From an uncultured Prevotellaceae bacterium (lineage in GTDB: Bacteria > Bacteroidota > Bacteroidia > Bacteroidales > Bacteroidaceae): a stretch of 64,000 nt of DNA. Location of the stretch: positions 62,001-126,000 of the forward strand of contig OMZS01000011.1 of NCBI GenBank assembly GCA_900315565.1, given 5' to 3'. The notes under the pieces were generated by a model. That model did not search any database. It was not told the DNA's origin and saw only the letters and a list, made by a program, of their open reading frames with translations. The position numbers were made by a program, and so were the translations under genes. This document shows positions 40,741 through 49,364 of this stretch, one piece after another; position 1 is the first letter of the stretch, and every line of letters starts with the position of its first letter.

Positions 40741-43476
40741 ATGAAAAAAGTAATTACCACCCTTTTGTTCCTCATGGGAATTGTAGGAACAACATCAGCA
40801 ACAGACTACGATCTCTACGTAGCCGGTACACGAGTGACGTCGAGCAACGCCAAGAATATTATGGCTGGCGTAAGTTATGATGCCACAAACAAGGTGCTGA
40901 CACTGAACAACGCTACTATCACGAGTTCTTCTGAACGAACCGCAGGCATCTGGAACAGCGGCATCGACGGACTCACCATCAAGGTGATTGGCAACTGTTA
41001 TGTAACGACAGCTAATGCCCACGCCATGGCCATGGCCTGCAGTACCACCATTTTGGGAGAGGACTTCCCAACGCTGTCGGTCAAAAGCAGTGACAATGAC
41101 AAAGCTGGCTGGTGCGGCATCTGGATGATGAACGGCAAAACTCTTACCATTCAGAACATCTGGCTCTATGTTACCGCATACGATTATGGGCTTTACGGCG
41201 CCAACAACTCCAACAGCTCGGAAAATGCGAAGCTGGAGCTCAAGCGGTGTACGGTTAGTGCCCAGCTCACCAACTCCAATGCCAGCAGGTCGGCTGTCAG
41301 CAATTGGAAATCAATTGACACTTGGGGTGTTTCGATTGACTGGAATGGTAACAAATTCGACTCGAATAAGAACACGATTACTGACGGCAGCGGCAAAAAC
41401 GTTACAAACCTCTGGATGGTGGGACGTCTCACCATAGGCCGCTACATCATTAACCCATACTACGATATTACCCTCACCAAAAGCAACGCTTCTGCAGGCA
41501 TCAGCTCAGGAACCATCAAATGGTATAGCTCGACGAAAGAGCTACAGCTGGACGGTGTCAGCTTGACAGTCATAAACGGCGCTTATCCCATCGCTTTCTA
41601 CGGCTATTCTGGTTCGTCAGAACCGATCAACATCTGGGTCAGCGGCACAAACCTGATACAAGTCAGCAAAGATTTATACGCTATTTGGAGCTACAAAAAC
41701 GACCTGAAAATTGACGGGCAGAGCTACACTTCTTCCAGTCTTCAGATTACTAACAGCAGCAGCGCATACGCTGCCATTAACTGCGGAGGTGCAAAACTGG
41801 ACATCGGCACCGTTTATCTGAACATCACCTCTGGAACAAACTGCCTCAGGGGCAACGGATCAACCGAGCTGACCATCGGCACGACCAGCGGCTCTAACCC
41901 AGGCAGCAAACTGTCGCTCCTAGCTACAAGTCCCAGTGCCATTTCCGGCTTCAAAAGCTGCACCATGAACAACTCATCCACGTCAAACGGTACCTATTTC
42001 AACACGTCAAAGAAAGCTTTCACCAACATTGGCGGCTCGCTGGCACAGAAAGTAACTATTGAGCAGGTTTCCACAAACTACGACTGCTACATCTTTGGCA
42101 ACAGGCTGAACAATGTGAACTGCAACAACTTTGCCTGCGAGGGCGTGGAGAGCGGAACAATAAAATGGGACAACTCGACGAAGACACTCACCATGACAGA
42201 TGTCTTGCTCGACAACAAGAACGTCACCTCACAGGCAGCCATCCGCCCAAGTTCAACCGCTGGCAGCTCTGTAACCGTCAGTATCTCGGGCGACAACGTC
42301 ATCAGGGGCGGACACAGCTCGTTCTATCCTACCAGCGACCTTACCATTAAAGGAAAAGGCAACCTGACCTGCGACAACACAGGCGAATGGGGAGCTATTC
42401 TGCAGGGAGGCAACGGTACAATCACCATCGATGTTGACGGAAAGGTATATTTCAAGGGAAAATACGGCTATAATACAAACGGTGGCAGCAATTCGACTAA
42501 CAAGCTTGTGCTGAAGAACAACAACAAATCTGACTATACTTTCGAAGGCTCAACGGCAGCCATTGACAAATTGTATGGCGGACTGACACTCACCGAACTT
42601 GACTTCTACTCCGATGTATCATACGGAGGTGCCCCTGGCTGCTACTTCGATACAGAAGACCACCGTGCCGAACAGAACGGTGGAGCAACGGCCAAGAAGG
42701 TGAATTTCATCAAACCATCCAAAAAGTACAACATCAATGTGGGCGGAACACGAGTGACAAACTGCAACGCATCCGGCATCGGAAGCAAATACATCAGCAG
42801 CGGCACAACCTCGGTTACATACAATTCGAGTAGCGATAAACTCATCCTGAACAATGCCAAAATATCTATTCCCGAAAACACCAAAACCCACGCCATTTAC
42901 ACATACAGCGACACATATTGCACCGTGGAGCTGATAGGCAAAAACGAACTGTCAAACAACAACTCTAACTACACGGACATCTATTTTGTCAACGGCGGAA
43001 CAATCACTGGCGGTGAGTTGGTCACCAAGGGAACAAGCCGCTCCGACCTGTATGCTGTAGAAGGGGAAATGACCATCGAGAACAGCAAAATAACGTGCGC
43101 CCATTCCATCTGGGGCGAGAAAAAGACGGCCACACTCACCATCGACAACTCTACCGTGGAAGCCAACTACTACATCGGCGGCTTTGGCAATCTCTATACA
43201 GCCAACACCTACCTCATTGAGCCGAAGAACGGAAAATACGACTCGTCGGCATCAACGCCCTACGTGGTGGATGCCAAAGGTACCCGTGCGGCTCACGTGC
43301 TCTACGGCCCGCAGGAGCTGCTCGGCATCGAGAACATGGAGGCCGACACTGCTGACGGCAACGCCGAGATGAAGCACATCTACGACACGAACGGCAGCGA
43401 ACAGGGCGAGCTGAAGCGCGGCGTGAACATCATCCGCATGAGCGACGGCACCGTGCGCAAGGTTATCAAGAAGTAA
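40741..43476 (+). CDS. large secreted repeat protein, four homologous modules and a Prevotella-type C-terminal tail
   Basis: 911 residues, signal peptide MKKVITTLLFLMGIVGTTSA. Four modules of roughly 210 residues each start with a related strand set: YDLYVAGTRVTSSNAKNI...VSYDATNKVLTLNNATI, YDITLTKSNASAGISSG...WYSSTKELQLDGVSL, YDCYIFGNRLNNVNCNNF...WDNSTKTLTMTDVLL and YNINVGGTRVTNCNASGI...YNSSSDKLILNNAKI. The Asn/Ser/Thr-rich, periodic sequence suggests a parallel beta-helix or stacked sandwich. The last 45 residues (IYDTNGSEQGELKRGVNIIR then MSDGTVRKVIKK) are a tail also used by other exported Prevotella proteins. No enzyme motif was seen; a surface adhesin or glycan-binding role is only a guess. 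Base use is more AT-rich than in neighbours. Confidence 0.8.
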   Translation: MKKVITTLLFLMGIVGTTSATDYDLYVAGTRVTSSNAKNIMAGVSYDATNKVLTLNNATITSSSERTAGIWNSGIDGLTIKVIGNCYVTTANAHAMAMACSTTILGEDFPTLSVKSSDNDKAGWCGIWMMNGKTLTIQNIWLYVTAYDYGLYGANNSNSSENAKLELKRCTVSAQLTNSNASRSAVSNWKSIDTWGVSIDWNGNKFDSNKNTITDGSGKNVTNLWMVGRLTIGRYIINPYYDITLTKSNASAGISSGTIKWYSSTKELQLDGVSLTVINGAYPIAFYGYSGSSEPINIWVSGTNLIQVSKDLYAIWSYKNDLKIDGQSYTSSSLQITNSSSAYAAINCGGAKLDIGTVYLNITSGTNCLRGNGSTELTIGTTSGSNPGSKLSLLATSPSAISGFKSCTMNNSSTSNGTYFNTSKKAFTNIGGSLAQKVTIEQVSTNYDCYIFGNRLNNVNCNNFACEGVESGTIKWDNSTKTLTMTDVLLDNKNVTSQAAIRPSSTAGSSVTVSISGDNVIRGGHSSFYPTSDLTIKGKGNLTCDNTGEWGAILQGGNGTITIDVDGKVYFKGKYGYNTNGGSNSTNKLVLKNNNKSDYTFEGSTAAIDKLYGGLTLTELDFYSDVSYGGAPGCYFDTEDHRAEQNGGATAKKVNFIKPSKKYNINVGGTRVTNCNASGIGSKYISSGTTSVTYNSSSDKLILNNAKISIPENTKTHAIYTYSDTYCTVELIGKNELSNNNSNYTDIYFVNGGTITGGELVTKGTSRSDLYAVEGEMTIENSKITCAHSIWGEKKTATLTIDNSTVEANYYIGGFGNLYTANTYLIEPKNGKYDSSASTPYVVDAKGTRAAHVLYGPQELLGIENMEADTADGNAEMKHIYDTNGSEQGELKRGVNIIRMSDGTVRKVIKK

Positions 43477-43487
43477 CCCCTGTCTTG

Positions 43488-43548
43488 TATGCTGAGGCAT
43501 TGCCTCTGCTCCCCCACCCAGTATGTTGAGGCCACCGCCTCAGCTCCA
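43488..43548. repeat. hairpin repeat, two copies in tandem, reverse orientation
   Basis: GCTGAGGC (43491-43498)/GCCTCTGC (43502-43509), and GTTGAGGC (43525-43532)/GCCTCAGC (43537-43544). On minus the second reads GCTGAGGCGGTGGCCTCAAC then ATACTGGG, aligned with GCTGCGGCGGTGCCGCAGC then ATACGGGG at 1523. Confidence 0.7.
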
Positions 43549-43614
43549 CTAGCGCACAGCTTCGGCCCTCGGGCCACTGTCACAGAAAATTTATTGCTAA
43601 AACCCTCTAAAAAG

Positions 43615-43647
43615 GTTGCAAGTTTACGAAAAATATTCGTAAATTTG
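43615..43647 (+). promoter_or_regulatory. predicted promoter of the ATPase-CYTH gene
   Basis: GTTG (43615-43618), 21-nt spacer, TAAATTTG (43640-43647); the start codon is 33 nt further on. Confidence 0.6.
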
Positions 43648-43680
43648 CAACCTATTAGTTTTATTATTTCCTCACATCCA

Positions 43681-44778
43681 ATGAAAGACATCAAACGTAT
43701 TGTGCTCACGGGAGGCCCCTGCGCCGGAAAAACCACCGCACTGGTGAGAGTCATCGAACACTTCTCGAGCCTCGGCTACAAAGTGTTTACCATTCCCGAA
43801 GTGCCCACCATGTTTACACAGGCGGGCATGAACTATCTCACCAAGAACCCCAACTTCTTCTACGAAGGCGAAAAGGCCACACTCGAAATTCAGCTGGCCC
43901 TGGAAGACAAGTTCATGCGCATGGCCGAGGCCTGCGACGAGCCGAGCGTCATTGTGTGTGACCGTGGTACCATGGATATTTCGGCCTATATGAAACCCGA
44001 AATGTGGGAACAGATTACCCACGACGTAGGCACCACTACTCAACAGCTGCGCGACCAGCGCTACGACGCCGTGCTCCATCTGGTGAGTGCTGCCGACGGT
44101 GCCGAACAGTTCTATACCACCTCCAACAATGCCAGCCGCAACGAGGCCGCCGACGAGGAGGGGCTCAAGATAGCACGAATGCTCGACAAGAAAGTGATTG
44201 AGGCATGGACGGGTCACAGCCACCTGCGAGTCATCAACAATCAGGACGATTTCGACCGCAAGCTCAACCGCGTAGTGAAAGAGATCTCCAATGTGCTCGG
44301 ACTGCCGCAACCCATCGAGGAAGAGCGCAAGTACATCGTTGAACTGACGGGCGAAATGCCCGAATCCATCGAGAGCGACATCACCCAGACCTACCTCGTG
44401 GCTGAGCCGGGATGCGAGGTTAGACTCAGACGACGCGGATGGGGAGGAAAGTTCGTCAATGTGCATACAACAAAAAAGAAAATCTCGGAAACAGAAGAGC
44501 TTGTCACCGAACGGCAAGTGTCTAACAACCTGTATCAGAGCCTGTTACAGCAAGCAGACCCCTATCGCCAAACCATACACAAGATGCGCCGCAGCTTTAT
44601 ATGGAAAGGACAGTTCTTTGAGCTCGACACGTATCTCAGCCCGCATACCAACCTCATTATTCTGGAAACGAAAGGCATTGCCGAACACAACGATGTGAAG
44701 TTCCCGCCCTTTGTGCGCGTGGTAGAGGACATTACTGGCAACAAACGCTACTACAACTACAATCTTGCCCTGCGGTAA
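43681..44778 (+). CDS. AAA-family ATPase/CYTH domain fusion (TTD14-like)
   Basis: 365 residues. N-terminal P-loop domain (1-190): Walker A TGGPCAGKTTALV, Walker-B-like VIVCDRGTMDISAYM and an R-rich lid. The C-terminal CYTH/triphosphate-tunnel domain (about 215-365) has its ExExK signature in EEERKYIVEL, followed by EVRLRRRGWGGKFVNVHTTKK and FELDTYLSPHTNLIILETKG. The same domain order is found in the animal protein TTD14, a GTP- and phospholipid-binding protein. In bacteria the function is unknown; triphosphate or polyphosphate chemistry coupled to a kinase-like domain is inferred. The start was set at MKDIKRIVLTGG; 64 open codons upstream cross the promoter. Confidence 0.88.
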   Translation: MKDIKRIVLTGGPCAGKTTALVRVIEHFSSLGYKVFTIPEVPTMFTQAGMNYLTKNPNFFYEGEKATLEIQLALEDKFMRMAEACDEPSVIVCDRGTMDISAYMKPEMWEQITHDVGTTTQQLRDQRYDAVLHLVSAADGAEQFYTTSNNASRNEAADEEGLKIARMLDKKVIEAWTGHSHLRVINNQDDFDRKLNRVVKEISNVLGLPQPIEEERKYIVELTGEMPESIESDITQTYLVAEPGCEVRLRRRGWGGKFVNVHTTKKKISETEELVTERQVSNNLYQSLLQQADPYRQTIHKMRRSFIWKGQFFELDTYLSPHTNLIILETKGIAEHNDVKFPPFVRVVEDITGNKRYYNYNLALR

Positions 44779-44817: not shown

Positions 44818-46734
44818 ATGACTCTTCAATACGACGTTATAGTGATTGGCGGCGGACACGCCGGATGCGAGGCAGCCACCGCTGCTGCCAACATGGGCGC
44901 ACGCACCTGTCTGGTGACCATGGACATGAACAAGATTGCCCAAATGTCGTGCAACCCTGCCATCGGAGGCATTGCCAAAGGCCAGATAGTGCGCGAAATC
45001 GACGCGCTGGGCGGTCAGATGGCACTCGTCACCGATGCAACGGCCATTCAGTTTCGCATGCTTAACCGAGGCAAAGGCCCGGCCGTATGGAGTCCGCGAG
45101 CGCAATGCGACCGCGGTAAATTTATTTGGCAATGGCGAAAAACGCTCGATGAAACCGCAAATTTAGACATTTGGCAGGATCAGGCCGACGAACTCCTGGT
45201 TGAAGATGCGCCCGAGGGGAGCGAACGTAAGAAAAGGGTCATTGGCATGCGCACGATATGGGGCGCAGAGTTACGCACCAAATGTGTCATCATCACTGCG
45301 GGCACATTCCTAAACGGGCTCCTGCACATCGGACGCAAGATGGTGCCTGGCGGGCGCATTGCCGAGCCCGCTGTAGCCCATTTCACCGAGAGTATCACCC
45401 GACATGGCATACGCTCAGCACGAATGAAAACAGGTACACCCGTGCGAATCGACAAGCGCAGCGTGCATTTCGAAGACATGAACGAACAACAAGGTGAACA
45501 GGGTTACTACCAATTTTCCTATATGGGCGCACCACGCCGGCTGAAGCAGCTGTCGTGCTGGGAATGCTACACCAACCCCGATGTTCATCAGGTTTTGCGC
45601 AGCGGACTGGCCGACTCACCACTCTATAACGGACAAATACAGTCCATCGGGCCGCGTTATTGTCCTTCTATCGAAACAAAACTCGTAACGTTTCCCGAAC
45701 GCGAGCAGCACCTCTTGTTTCTTGAACCAGAGGGAGAGAGCACCAACGAGATGTATCTCAACGGTTTCTCATCATCACTTCCCATGGATGTGCAAATCAG
45801 CGCGCTGAAGAAAATACCCGCACTTCGCGACATCAGAGTTTATAGGCCTGGCTACGCCATAGAATACGATTTCTTTGACCCCACACAACTCAATCACGCG
45901 TTGGAATCGAAAATTATCGACGGTTTGTTCATGGCCGGCCAAGTGAACGGTACCACTGGCTACGAAGAAGCCGGAGGCCAGGGAACCATAGCAGGCATCA
46001 ACGCAGCACTGAAGGTGGGTTCGGCAGGCTCGGATTCGGGCGCAGCCCAACCGTTTATACTCCACCGCGACGAAGCCTACATCGGTGTACTCATAGACGA
46101 CCTCGTGACCAAGGGCGTTGACGAGCCCTACCGCATGTTTACCTCGCGTGCCGAATACCGCATTCTGCTCCGTCAGGACGATGCCGACGCACGACTCACT
46201 GAAAAGGCCTATCAGCTGGGACTGGCCACACGCGAGCGTTATGATTGGTGGATGGAGAAAAAGAACGCTATTGACGAGCTGACCGATTTCTGCCAAAAAA
46301 CAACGATAAAACCGAACGAAATAAATGGTACGCTCGAACACCTTGACACCGCCCCACTCCACGGAACAACAAAACTCTATGATCTCTTAGGAAGACCGCA
46401 ACTCAACTTAGAAATTCTAGCCGAACTTTCGCCCGCGCTGAAACAGAAGATTTCATCGCTGGAAAAACGAAACGAAGAAATTGCCGAAGCCACGGAAATA
46501 AAAATAAAATACCGCGGATACATCGAACGTGAGAAAATGGTTGCCGAGAAAATGCACCGTCTGGAAAACATAAAAATAAAAGGACACTTTGATTATCCCA
46601 ACTTAGCGGCCATTTCTACCGAGGCACGCCAAAAGCTACAAGCCATACAGCCCGAAACACTGGCGCAAGCCAGTCGTATTCCGGGTGTTTCGCCCAGCGA
46701 CATCAACGCCATGCTGGTGCTCATGGGCAGATAA
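44818..46734 (+). CDS. mnmG: tRNA uridine-5-carboxymethylaminomethyl modification enzyme MnmG (GidA)
   Basis: 638 residues. FAD motif VIVIGGGHAGCEAATAAANMG, CNPAIGGIAKGQIVREIDALGG, the conserved GTFLNGLLHIGRKMVPGGRI, TGTPVRI, and GQVNGTTGYEEAGGQGTIAGINAAL are all present, with the helical C-terminal tRNA/MnmE-binding part (IKYRGYIEREKMVAEKM...IPGVSPSDINAMLVLMG). With MnmE it adds the cmnm5 group to the wobble uridine of several tRNAs. mnmG is often close to oriC, which fits the parS sites directly downstream. Confidence 0.97.
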   Translation: MTLQYDVIVIGGGHAGCEAATAAANMGARTCLVTMDMNKIAQMSCNPAIGGIAKGQIVREIDALGGQMALVTDATAIQFRMLNRGKGPAVWSPRAQCDRGKFIWQWRKTLDETANLDIWQDQADELLVEDAPEGSERKKRVIGMRTIWGAELRTKCVIITAGTFLNGLLHIGRKMVPGGRIAEPAVAHFTESITRHGIRSARMKTGTPVRIDKRSVHFEDMNEQQGEQGYYQFSYMGAPRRLKQLSCWECYTNPDVHQVLRSGLADSPLYNGQIQSIGPRYCPSIETKLVTFPEREQHLLFLEPEGESTNEMYLNGFSSSLPMDVQISALKKIPALRDIRVYRPGYAIEYDFFDPTQLNHALESKIIDGLFMAGQVNGTTGYEEAGGQGTIAGINAALKVGSAGSDSGAAQPFILHRDEAYIGVLIDDLVTKGVDEPYRMFTSRAEYRILLRQDDADARLTEKAYQLGLATRERYDWWMEKKNAIDELTDFCQKTTIKPNEINGTLEHLDTAPLHGTTKLYDLLGRPQLNLEILAELSPALKQKISSLEKRNEEIAEATEIKIKYRGYIEREKMVAEKMHRLENIKIKGHFDYPNLAAISTEARQKLQAIQPETLAQASRIPGVSPSDINAMLVLMGR

Positions 46735-46893
46735 CAAGAACCAAAAGAAGCGAAACCAAGAGGCGGGAAAGGAGAGCGAAGAGATGGAAAGCAAAGAGTG
46801 AAGAAGTGGAAAACGAAGAGTGAATAACGAGAAACCCATGTTGTGTTTCACGTGAAACAATAGTCAATACAACAAATTTATAATAAGCTGAAA
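46735..46893. other. purine-rich spacer with parS site
   Basis: After the mnmG stop come purine-rich degenerate units (GAAGAGATGGAAAGCAAAGAGTG and similar) to about 46830, then parS site 1, then an AT-rich leader of apt. Confidence 0.6.
46844..46859. other. parS: parS site 1 (ParB-binding centromere sequence)
   Basis: TGTTTCACGTGAAACA, an exact match to the conserved bacterial parS palindrome (TGTTNCACGTGAAACA). It is located 35 nt before apt. ParB binds it and spreads to organise and segregate the origin region. Confidence 0.9.
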
Positions 46894-47421
46894 ATGAACA
46901 ATCAAGTATTAATTGACAATCTGCGTTGCATTCCAGATTTTCCAAAAAAAGGAATTAACTTTCGCGACGTAACGACGCTCTACAAGAGTGGCGAGTGCAT
47001 GAAAATCATGCTCGACGAATTGTACGAACTTTACAAGGACAAGGGCATCACTAAAATCGTGGGCATTGAGAGCCGTGGTTTTGTCATGGCGTCGGCATTG
47101 GCTGCCCGCCTGGGCTGCGGAGTAGTGCTAGCCAGAAAGCCGGGCAAACTGCCTGCCACCGTCATCAAAGAATCGTTCTCAAAAGAATATGGTGTTGATA
47201 CCATCGAAATGCACATCGATGCCATAGAACCTGACGACGTGGTGCTGATTCACGACGACCTGTTGGCAACAGGAGGAACAGCAAAGGCAGCCTATAAACT
47301 GGTGAAGCATTTCCACCCGAAAAAGATATACATCAATTTCATCATCGAAATCACCGACGAAGGTCTTCACGGACGCGACGAATTTGAGGGTCTCGACCTT
47401 ACAACACTCGTCACCGTCTGA
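46894..47421 (+). CDS. apt: adenine phosphoribosyltransferase
   Basis: 175 residues, standard length. MNNQVLIDNLRCIPDFPKKGINFRDVTTL is the typical N-terminus; IVGIESRGFVMASALAARLG, VVLARKPGKLPATV and the PRPP-binding loop VVLIHDDLLATGGTAKAA are intact. It salvages adenine to AMP with PRPP in the cytoplasm. The gene lies exactly between two parS sites; ParB spreading could affect its expression, which is speculative. Confidence 0.96.
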   Translation: MNNQVLIDNLRCIPDFPKKGINFRDVTTLYKSGECMKIMLDELYELYKDKGITKIVGIESRGFVMASALAARLGCGVVLARKPGKLPATVIKESFSKEYGVDTIEMHIDAIEPDDVVLIHDDLLATGGTAKAAYKLVKHFHPKKIYINFIIEITDEGLHGRDEFEGLDLTTLVTV

Positions 47422-47457
47422 CAGGCGAGCAACCCCGTGGAAATCAGGAAACAAAGC

Positions 47458-47495
47458 AGCCGTTGTTTCACGTGAAACAACGGCTTTCTTGTTTT
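47458..47495 (+). other. parS: parS site 2 inside a 28-bp palindrome, possible apt terminator
   Basis: TGTTTCACGTGAAACA (47464-47479) is the centre of a perfect 28-bp palindrome (47458-47485) whose arms add AGCCGT/ACGGCT. TTCTTGTTTT follows. As RNA this can form a hairpin with a T-rich tail 36 nt after the apt stop, so one sequence may serve both ParB binding and termination. Confidence 0.88.
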
Positions 47496-47537: not shown

Positions 47538-49364
47538 ATGACGAGAGAAGAAAACGAGCAAAGGCTGGAACGCCTAAAGAGTATCGTACTCAACATGCCC
47601 GAAAAGCCGGGCAGTTATCAGTACTACGACGAAGACGGAACCATCATCTACGTTGGCAAGGCCAAAAAGTTGAAAAGCCGTTGCTCGTCTTACTTTCATT
47701 CAGAGGTTGACCGATTCAAAACCAAAGTACTCGTCAGCAAGATTCACAACATCACATACACCGTGGTGAACACAGAAGAAGACGCTCTTCTGCTAGAAAA
47801 CAACCTGATTAAAAAATATCAACCACGCTACAATGTACTGCTGAAAGACGGTAAAACCTACCCATGCATCTGCATTACCAACGAGCTGTATCCCCGCATC
47901 TTCAGTACGCGAAACATCAACAAAAAATGGGGCACTTATTTCGGCCCTTACAGCCACATCAGTACCATGTATGCCATGCTCGACATCATCAAGAAACTTT
48001 ATAAGCCGAGAACCTGTAGGTTTCCAATAACAAAAGAAGGCGTTGAGCAAGGAAAATATAAACCGTGTCTGGAATACCACATCAAAAACTGCGACGCACC
48101 TTGCATAAACAAGCAAACCTACGAAGCTTACCAGGAGAACATGCGCCAGGCACGCGAAATACTAAAAGGAAACACGCGTCAGCTGTCACGTCAGCTGTTC
48201 GAAGCCATGCAGAAAGCTGCCGAGGAACTTAGATTCGAAGAGGCCGAAATGCTCAAGAGACGCTATCTGATGCTAGAAACCTACTGCTCGAAAAGTGAGG
48301 TGGTAAGCCACACCATCAACAATGTGGATGTGTTCAGCATAACCAACGACGACAAACAGGCATTCATCAACTACATGCACGTGAGCAACGGATCGATAGT
48401 GCAAGCCTTCACATTTGAATATAAAAAGAAACTCAACGAGACCGATGAAGAACTCTTGCAACTGGGAATTGTGGAAATCAGACAGCGTTTTAAAAGCACA
48501 TCGCGCGAAATCATTGTACCTTTCGAACTGAACGTAGAACTGGAAGGAATAACGCTGACCATTCCGCAAAGAGGTGACAAAAAAACGCTGCTCGACCTGT
48601 CGATTATGAACGGAAAACAGTATAAATTCGACCGTCTGAAACAGGCCGAGAAGCTGAATCCCGAGCAAAAGCAAACGCGCCTAATGAAAGAATTGCAGAA
48701 TGCCTTGAAACTAGAAAAACTGCCTTATCAAATAGAATGTTTCGACAACTCCAATATATCGGGCACCGATGCCGTGGCGGGATGCGTAGTGTTTAAGGGC
48801 ATGAAACCTTCGAAAAAAGATTACCGCAAATACAACATCAAAACCGTGGTTGGCCCCGACGATTATGCCTCGATGCAGGAGGTGGTGAGAAGGCGTTACA
48901 GCCGCATGATGGAAGAACGCACTCCCCTACCCGACCTGATCATTACCGACGGCGGAAAAGGCCAAATGGAGGTAGTGCGCCAGGTGGTGGAAGACGAACT
49001 AAACCTGAAGATACCTATCGCCGGTTTGGCCAAAGACGACCGCCACCGCACCAACGAATTGCTGTACGGTTTTCCTCCGGTAGTCATCGGCATGAAAACC
49101 GACTCGGAACTATTCCACATACTGACGCAAATACAAGACGAGGTACACCGTTACGCTATTACATTCCACCGCGACAAACGTTCCAAACATGCGCTTCATA
49201 GCGAATTGGACGAGATAAAAGGCATCGGACCCAAGACAAAAGAACAGCTGTTGAAGAAACTAAAGAGTATAAAACGAATAAAAGAAGCTGATATTCAGCA
49301 ACTTACAGAAATTATTGGCAACAATAAAGCCAATATTGTTTACAATTACTTTCATCAGTCATGA
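47538..49364 (+). CDS. uvrC: excinuclease ABC subunit C
   Basis: 608 residues. N-terminal GIY-YIG nuclease (PGSYQYYDEDGTIIYVGKAK), the UVR helix pair that contacts UvrB (LFEAMQKAAEELRFEEAEMLKRRY), the RNase-H-like second nuclease (IECFDNSNISGTDAVAGCVVF ... LPDLIITDGGKGQMEV) and a C-terminal double helix-hairpin-helix (LDEIKGIGPKTKEQLLKKLKSI). It makes both incisions in nucleotide excision repair. Its stop codon overlaps the start of a small membrane protein ORF (ATGA). Confidence 0.97.
   Translation: MTREENEQRLERLKSIVLNMPEKPGSYQYYDEDGTIIYVGKAKKLKSRCSSYFHSEVDRFKTKVLVSKIHNITYTVVNTEEDALLLENNLIKKYQPRYNVLLKDGKTYPCICITNELYPRIFSTRNINKKWGTYFGPYSHISTMYAMLDIIKKLYKPRTCRFPITKEGVEQGKYKPCLEYHIKNCDAPCINKQTYEAYQENMRQAREILKGNTRQLSRQLFEAMQKAAEELRFEEAEMLKRRYLMLETYCSKSEVVSHTINNVDVFSITNDDKQAFINYMHVSNGSIVQAFTFEYKKKLNETDEELLQLGIVEIRQRFKSTSREIIVPFELNVELEGITLTIPQRGDKKTLLDLSIMNGKQYKFDRLKQAEKLNPEQKQTRLMKELQNALKLEKLPYQIECFDNSNISGTDAVAGCVVFKGMKPSKKDYRKYNIKTVVGPDDYASMQEVVRRRYSRMMEERTPLPDLIITDGGKGQMEVVRQVVEDELNLKIPIAGLAKDDRHRTNELLYGFPPVVIGMKTDSELFHILTQIQDEVHRYAITFHRDKRSKHALHSELDEIKGIGPKTKEQLLKKLKSIKRIKEADIQQLTEIIGNNKANIVYNYFHQS

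Follow-up and report, generated by a model that had tools for sequence, protein, structure and literature searches.

The window, a stretch of 64,000 nucleotides that corresponds to positions 62001-126000 of contig C35 of genome G000, contains the genes mnmG, apt and uvrC, whose identities were assigned with NCBIfam models, and two exact copies of the 16-bp palindrome TGTTTCACGTGAAACA, one on each side of apt (Table 1). The earlier note's central observation, that two exact parS sites flank apt beside mnmG, was thus confirmed for both the sites and the genes. The two sites are identical over 17 bp and their starts are 620 bp apart; alignment of the mnmG-apt gap with the apt-uvrC gap revealed no common flanks outside the sites of interest, and an Rfam search returned one tRNA and no match at either parS site. 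Regarding the surroundings, a purine-rich 22-bp tandem pair, 77% alike, is located just 5' of site 1 (window 46773-46816), an AAA_28-domain protein (PF13521) is encoded directly upstream of mnmG (window 43489-44778), and further upstream there is a 911-aa open reading frame (window 40741-43476) with an apparent signal peptide at its start and without a Pfam or NCBIfam match at the thresholds used.

Table 1. Features of the mnmG-apt-uvrC region and the candidate replication origin; positions are those of the window unless a contig is named.
Feature	Position	Strand	Description
mnmG (gidA), anchor gene adjoining the sites	44818..46734	+	TIGR00136, 767.7 bits vs cut-off 524.85
parS site 1	46844..46859	.	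exact TGTTTCACGTGAAACA; mnmG-apt gap; ~110 bp past mnmG stop, 34 bp before apt start
apt, adenine phosphoribosyltransferase, between the sites	46894..47421	+	NF002636, 193.1 bits vs cut-off 125
perfect palindrome of 28 bp enclosing parS site 2, intrinsic-terminator-like, after apt	47458..47485	+	predicted RNA hairpin
parS site 2	47464..47479	.	exact TGTTTCACGTGAAACA; apt-uvrC gap
uvrC, next gene past site 2	47538..49364	+	TIGR00194, 528.3 bits vs cut-off 285.45
rubredoxin-nadA gap, oriC candidate	C35:148900-149500, ~23 kb past the window's right end		five DnaA boxes

At up to three mismatches the window holds three parS matches, compared with a shuffle mean of 0.30 and with none of 100 shuffles reaching three. 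Across the whole genome (3,328,013 bp in 40 contigs) the exact 16-mer occurs at sites 1 and 2 only, so that its copies are not scattered around the chromosome, and since 6.7e-4 exact copies are expected in the genome from base composition, chance is excluded for the exact pair. One further match was detected, with two mismatches, at C20:70921; a reversed-pattern control gave four matches per strand at up to two mismatches, and this lone site is therefore meaningless by itself.

The presence of parB, on which the earlier note had made its centromere reading depend, was established by the detection of one chromosomal TIGR00180 (parB_part) protein in the genome (C36:97989-98522; 195 bits vs cut-off 58.45). 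This ParB of 306 aa has the Pfam domains ParB_N, HTH_ParB and ParB_C and contains GERRWRA and ENIQR, which we take to be CTP-binding motifs. At 76 bp upstream of it, a ParA-like open reading frame of 254 aa is encoded (positions 540-1304 of L033, the 3.5 kb parB locus), which carries KGGVGKTT and belongs to the ParA/MinD superfamily while reaching no NCBIfam cut-off. Most of this ParB can be aligned with Caulobacter ParB (6t1f/7bm8; E 1.5e-49), and in this alignment, read by eye, it keeps R173 and G201, given as the parS-specificity residues in the available part of PMC7383237, as well as Q162, G170, K171, S172, N178 and R204, given there as shared contact residues. Positions 179 and 184, likewise read by eye, are Tyr and Lys, and according to the same part of that source Lys184 is a residue characteristic of Noc that is permissive (PMC7383237). 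Lys184 is not clean evidence, yet in its RXXG class, judged from the alignment, the protein goes with ParB. A Noc-binding site (NBS), for which an NBS motif together with a Noc carrying Q173, K179, K184 and R201 was taken as the criterion, was considered and rejected: the sites are exact parS, and the sole TIGR00180 protein has R173, Y179, K184 and G201.

Both parAB and dnaA (C36:130597) are located on contig C36, that is, on a contig other than that of the parS sites, and the 3.5 kb parB locus contains no parS-like site at up to three mismatches, in agreement with the earlier note's proposal of a centromere that does not sit beside parAB. The same separation is seen in 20 single-contig genomes (18 from the phylum sample together with the relatives G016 and G024), in which parB is never closer to mnmG than 301 kb and the median distance is 24% of the chromosome, six of the chromosome lengths being rounded or approximate. 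Regarding dnaA, this gene is located within 50 kb of mnmG in eight of these 20 genomes and farther away in the other 12. That dnaA still neighbours mnmG and parS in some classes suggests that such an arrangement is ancestral, and dnaA would then have been displaced afterwards in the class to which the window belongs.

The placement of the sites beside mnmG is widely shared. Among 60 relatives, G000 included, 40 have a site at up to one mismatch, and in 37 of these 40 it is no more than 4 kb from the mnmG match, the site and mnmG being on separate contigs in the remaining three (G001, G043 and G052); at all 30 relative loci examined the site is at mnmG, apt or uvrC. In the phylum sample, an exact parS site was detected in 65 of 118 genomes. 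Among the matches listed, which comprise 75 sites in 52 of these 65 genomes, a site is located within 4 kb of mnmG in 51 of the 52 genomes, on the 5' side of the gene, on its 3' side or on both, and for the 74 sites on the contig of mnmG the median distance to the gene is 20 bp, with 54 sites no more than 50 bp and 68 no more than 200 bp away. The exception among the matches listed, G168, has its exact site at C42:67753, on the contig of parB and approximately 54 kb from that gene. The surroundings of mnmG were also taken from 20 genomes without such sites, namely nine of the 53 phylum genomes and 11 of the 20 relatives lacking a site (those with a detected mnmG; the nine without were left out), and a palindrome with a CACGTG core was present beside mnmG in all 20. 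These variants match parS at up to three mismatches, within approximately 110 bp of mnmG, in 19 of the 20 genomes and at four mismatches in G036, while shuffles gave 0.03 such sites per locus at three mismatches and 0.38 at four. In addition, 80 named loci, all from Prevotella-type bacteria, were selected for the similarity of their Apt. A site is present in every one of their 79 complete mnmG-apt gaps and in 74 of 79 apt-uvrC gaps, with both gaps occupied in 73 of 78; the named loci come from related species and these counts are therefore not independent. Judged by position across these genomes, the anchor of the sites is mnmG and not apt.

Regarding the replication origin, the AT-rich rubredoxin-nadA gap (670 bp) of contig C35 holds five DnaA boxes at up to one mismatch, with a stretch of less than 500 bp containing four of the five, where 30 shuffles never gave more than three. 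This cluster is located outside the window, on the same contig and 39.4 kb from parS site 2, and is probably oriC. In relatives, at least three DnaA boxes are present in the kilobase upstream of nadA at 21 of 30 loci (shuffle means at most 0.5), several of them at matching positions, and eight of the 30 loci have no boxes, although in two of these the available sequence upstream of nadA is short (15 and 382 nt). Both nadA and mnmG were found in 42 of the 60 relatives and share a contig in 21, in 20 of which they are 7.6 to 53 kb apart; the exception is the three-contig congener G010, with 883 kb between mnmG and a nadA without DnaA boxes. In G010 the GC skew gave no signal (148 of 200 shuffles as good). 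Its dnaA is on contig C1 and its parS and parB are on contig C3, and this bacterium may be a Prevotella with two chromosomes in which the origin has been relocated.

The earlier note had placed the window in the origin domain, a claim that is supported by the DnaA-box cluster and by the GC skew of a congener and that finds no echo in the skew of the contig itself. In the single-contig congener G024, sampled as 40 stretches of 20 kb, the skew places the origin at 1.41-1.67 Mb, a fit that none of 100 shuffles equalled, and parS is at 1.54 Mb, with dnaA at 2.35 Mb, 0.8 Mb from parS, and parB at 0.48 Mb. In G016, a balanced fit has 0.61-0.77 Mb among its best three solutions and parS is at 0.60 Mb, but the skew is weak, with 12 of 100 shuffles as good and an unconstrained fit at 1.09 Mb, 0.49 Mb off parS. 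The cumulative GC skew of the 197 kb contig C35 reaches its minimum at 164.7 kb, 55 kb from parS, and not at the sites themselves, and it therefore does not decide the origin claim either way. Within the window, DnaA boxes are scattered (36 vs 26.5 expected; 6 of 100 shuffles reach 36) and do not cluster at the sites.

Thus, with two exact sites, a ParB with parS-type contacts encoded together with a ParA and a probable origin nearby, it is highly probable that a ParABS system for chromosome segregation uses the two palindromes as its parS centromere, a centromere of the ordinary kind whose location has been remarkably durable. ParB would load on the two parS sites as a CTP-dependent clamp and spread over the DNA of mnmG, apt and uvrC. 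ParA would then move this DNA with its ParB, and the probable replication origin, 39 kb away, would be segregated first. Closeness to oriC and a long-standing association with mnmG, rather than closeness to parAB or dnaA, would set the placement of the sites.

Site 2 differs from site 1 in its immediate surroundings. The predicted RNA hairpin of the 28-bp palindrome has 12 pairs and an ACGU loop and is followed by TTCTTGTTTT, an imperfect T-tract; it is predicted to fold at -21 kcal/mol (z -5.1), a stability that none of 200 shuffles reached, while site 1 has no comparable fold (z -0.84). A stable, G+C-containing hairpin and a T-rich tract after a gene, as expected of a Rho-independent terminator, are thus predicted at site 2 only, and the element probably also ends the apt transcript. 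A simple terminator scan of the region listed the site 2 element with the longest stem, the number of terminator-like sites (nine vs 12.2 in shuffles) showing no excess. The extension as a conserved feature was rejected, since a terminator-like extension is present at only two of 25 post-apt sites and at none of the 153 sites in the gaps of the 80 named loci. A longer palindrome of 40 bp surrounds the same post-apt site in G016, and the remaining 23 post-apt sites, like the named-locus gap sites, have perfect half-palindromes of at most 10. The extension is apparently an occasional, repeated elaboration and, being rare among relatives, is not the reason why the sites are conserved. In the apt-uvrC gap of Prevotella communis (CP091794), a record in which both parS sites are present, a separate G+C-rich hairpin was seen by eye directly before parS, and the first bases of parS could serve as the T-tract of this hairpin.

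The embedding of site 2 in a palindrome with a T-rich tail raises the alternative that only the mnmG-proximal site is the working centromere and that site 2 has been taken over by termination, with little or no ParB binding. The named loci, in which the apt-uvrC gap lacks a site more often than the mnmG-apt gap, point to site 2 as the more dispensable one. We nevertheless regard this alternative as unlikely, because site 2 is still the exact 16-mer and most relatives keep a post-apt site without the terminator-like extension, which argues that it is kept for another reason.

A considerably less probable explanation is that some unknown regulator of apt or uvrC uses the palindromes as operators and that their identity with parS is coincidental. 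It would fit the position of the sites near gene starts (in other classes a distance of 14-20 bp to mnmG is frequent), but the sequence of the sites is the parS consensus used in PMC10197239, as given in the available part of that source, a ParB with parS-type residues is encoded in the genome, and the sites accompany mnmG on either side even where apt is not a neighbour. That the palindromes arose by chance is practically inconceivable given the genome-wide counts and the conservation of their place in relatives.

With a parS centromere of the ParABS system as the preferred reading, the placement data provide a testable rule for draft genomes of Bacteroidota, in which dnaA is a poor marker of the origin; according to this rule the centromere and origin domain are to be sought beside mnmG and not beside dnaA or parAB. 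They also pose a puzzle, in that over long evolution parS has remained only tens of bases away from a single gene for tRNA modification while the genes of its binding protein have moved. More tentatively, and with rather more doubt than confidence on our part, the centromere of Bacteroidota may have been locked to mnmG since before the classes split while parAB, and in many lineages dnaA, wandered off by hundreds of kb, in which case mnmG, oriC and parS would constitute the true origin domain; in the lineage studied here one parS would have grown into an intrinsic terminator, and occupancy by ParB could tune readthrough of apt or uvrC. Site 2 would then be a case of centromere loading and transcription termination on one palindrome.

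In other phyla, parS is usually located close to parAB and gidAB. The founding survey of parS sites is that of Livny et al. (2007). Among the open-licence PMC papers brought up by searches, none was recognised as linking parS to mnmG/gidA or to Bacteroidetes neighbourhoods, and none as linking parS with terminators. The oriC of Prevotella intermedia has several DnaA boxes and is far from dnaA, which according to its authors is common in Bacteroidetes (PMC4755523, in the available part of the text, where parA and parB do not occur); the candidate described here shares both properties. In Bacteroides caecimuris and Muribaculum intestinale, parS clusters identified in a Hi-C study are located at the origin indicated by GC skew and coverage, which need not coincide with dnaA; they mark the origin domain in these two Bacteroidetes, in which known condensins were not found (PMC10197239, available part). 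These clusters belong to the same phylum and have the same motif as the sites described here, and the available part of that study mentions neither their gene neighbourhood nor a link to mnmG. The ParABS systems of Bacillus subtilis and Caulobacter use the same exact consensus TGTTTCACGTGAAACA (PMC7333895; PMC7383237; available parts). The system described here resembles chromosomal ParABS in the DNA-contact residues and CTP-motif sequences of ParB, in having ParA beside ParB, in its few clustered sites and in their probable closeness to the origin, but differs in that, in this phylum, hundreds of kb separate parS from parAB and the distance to dnaA is often large as well.
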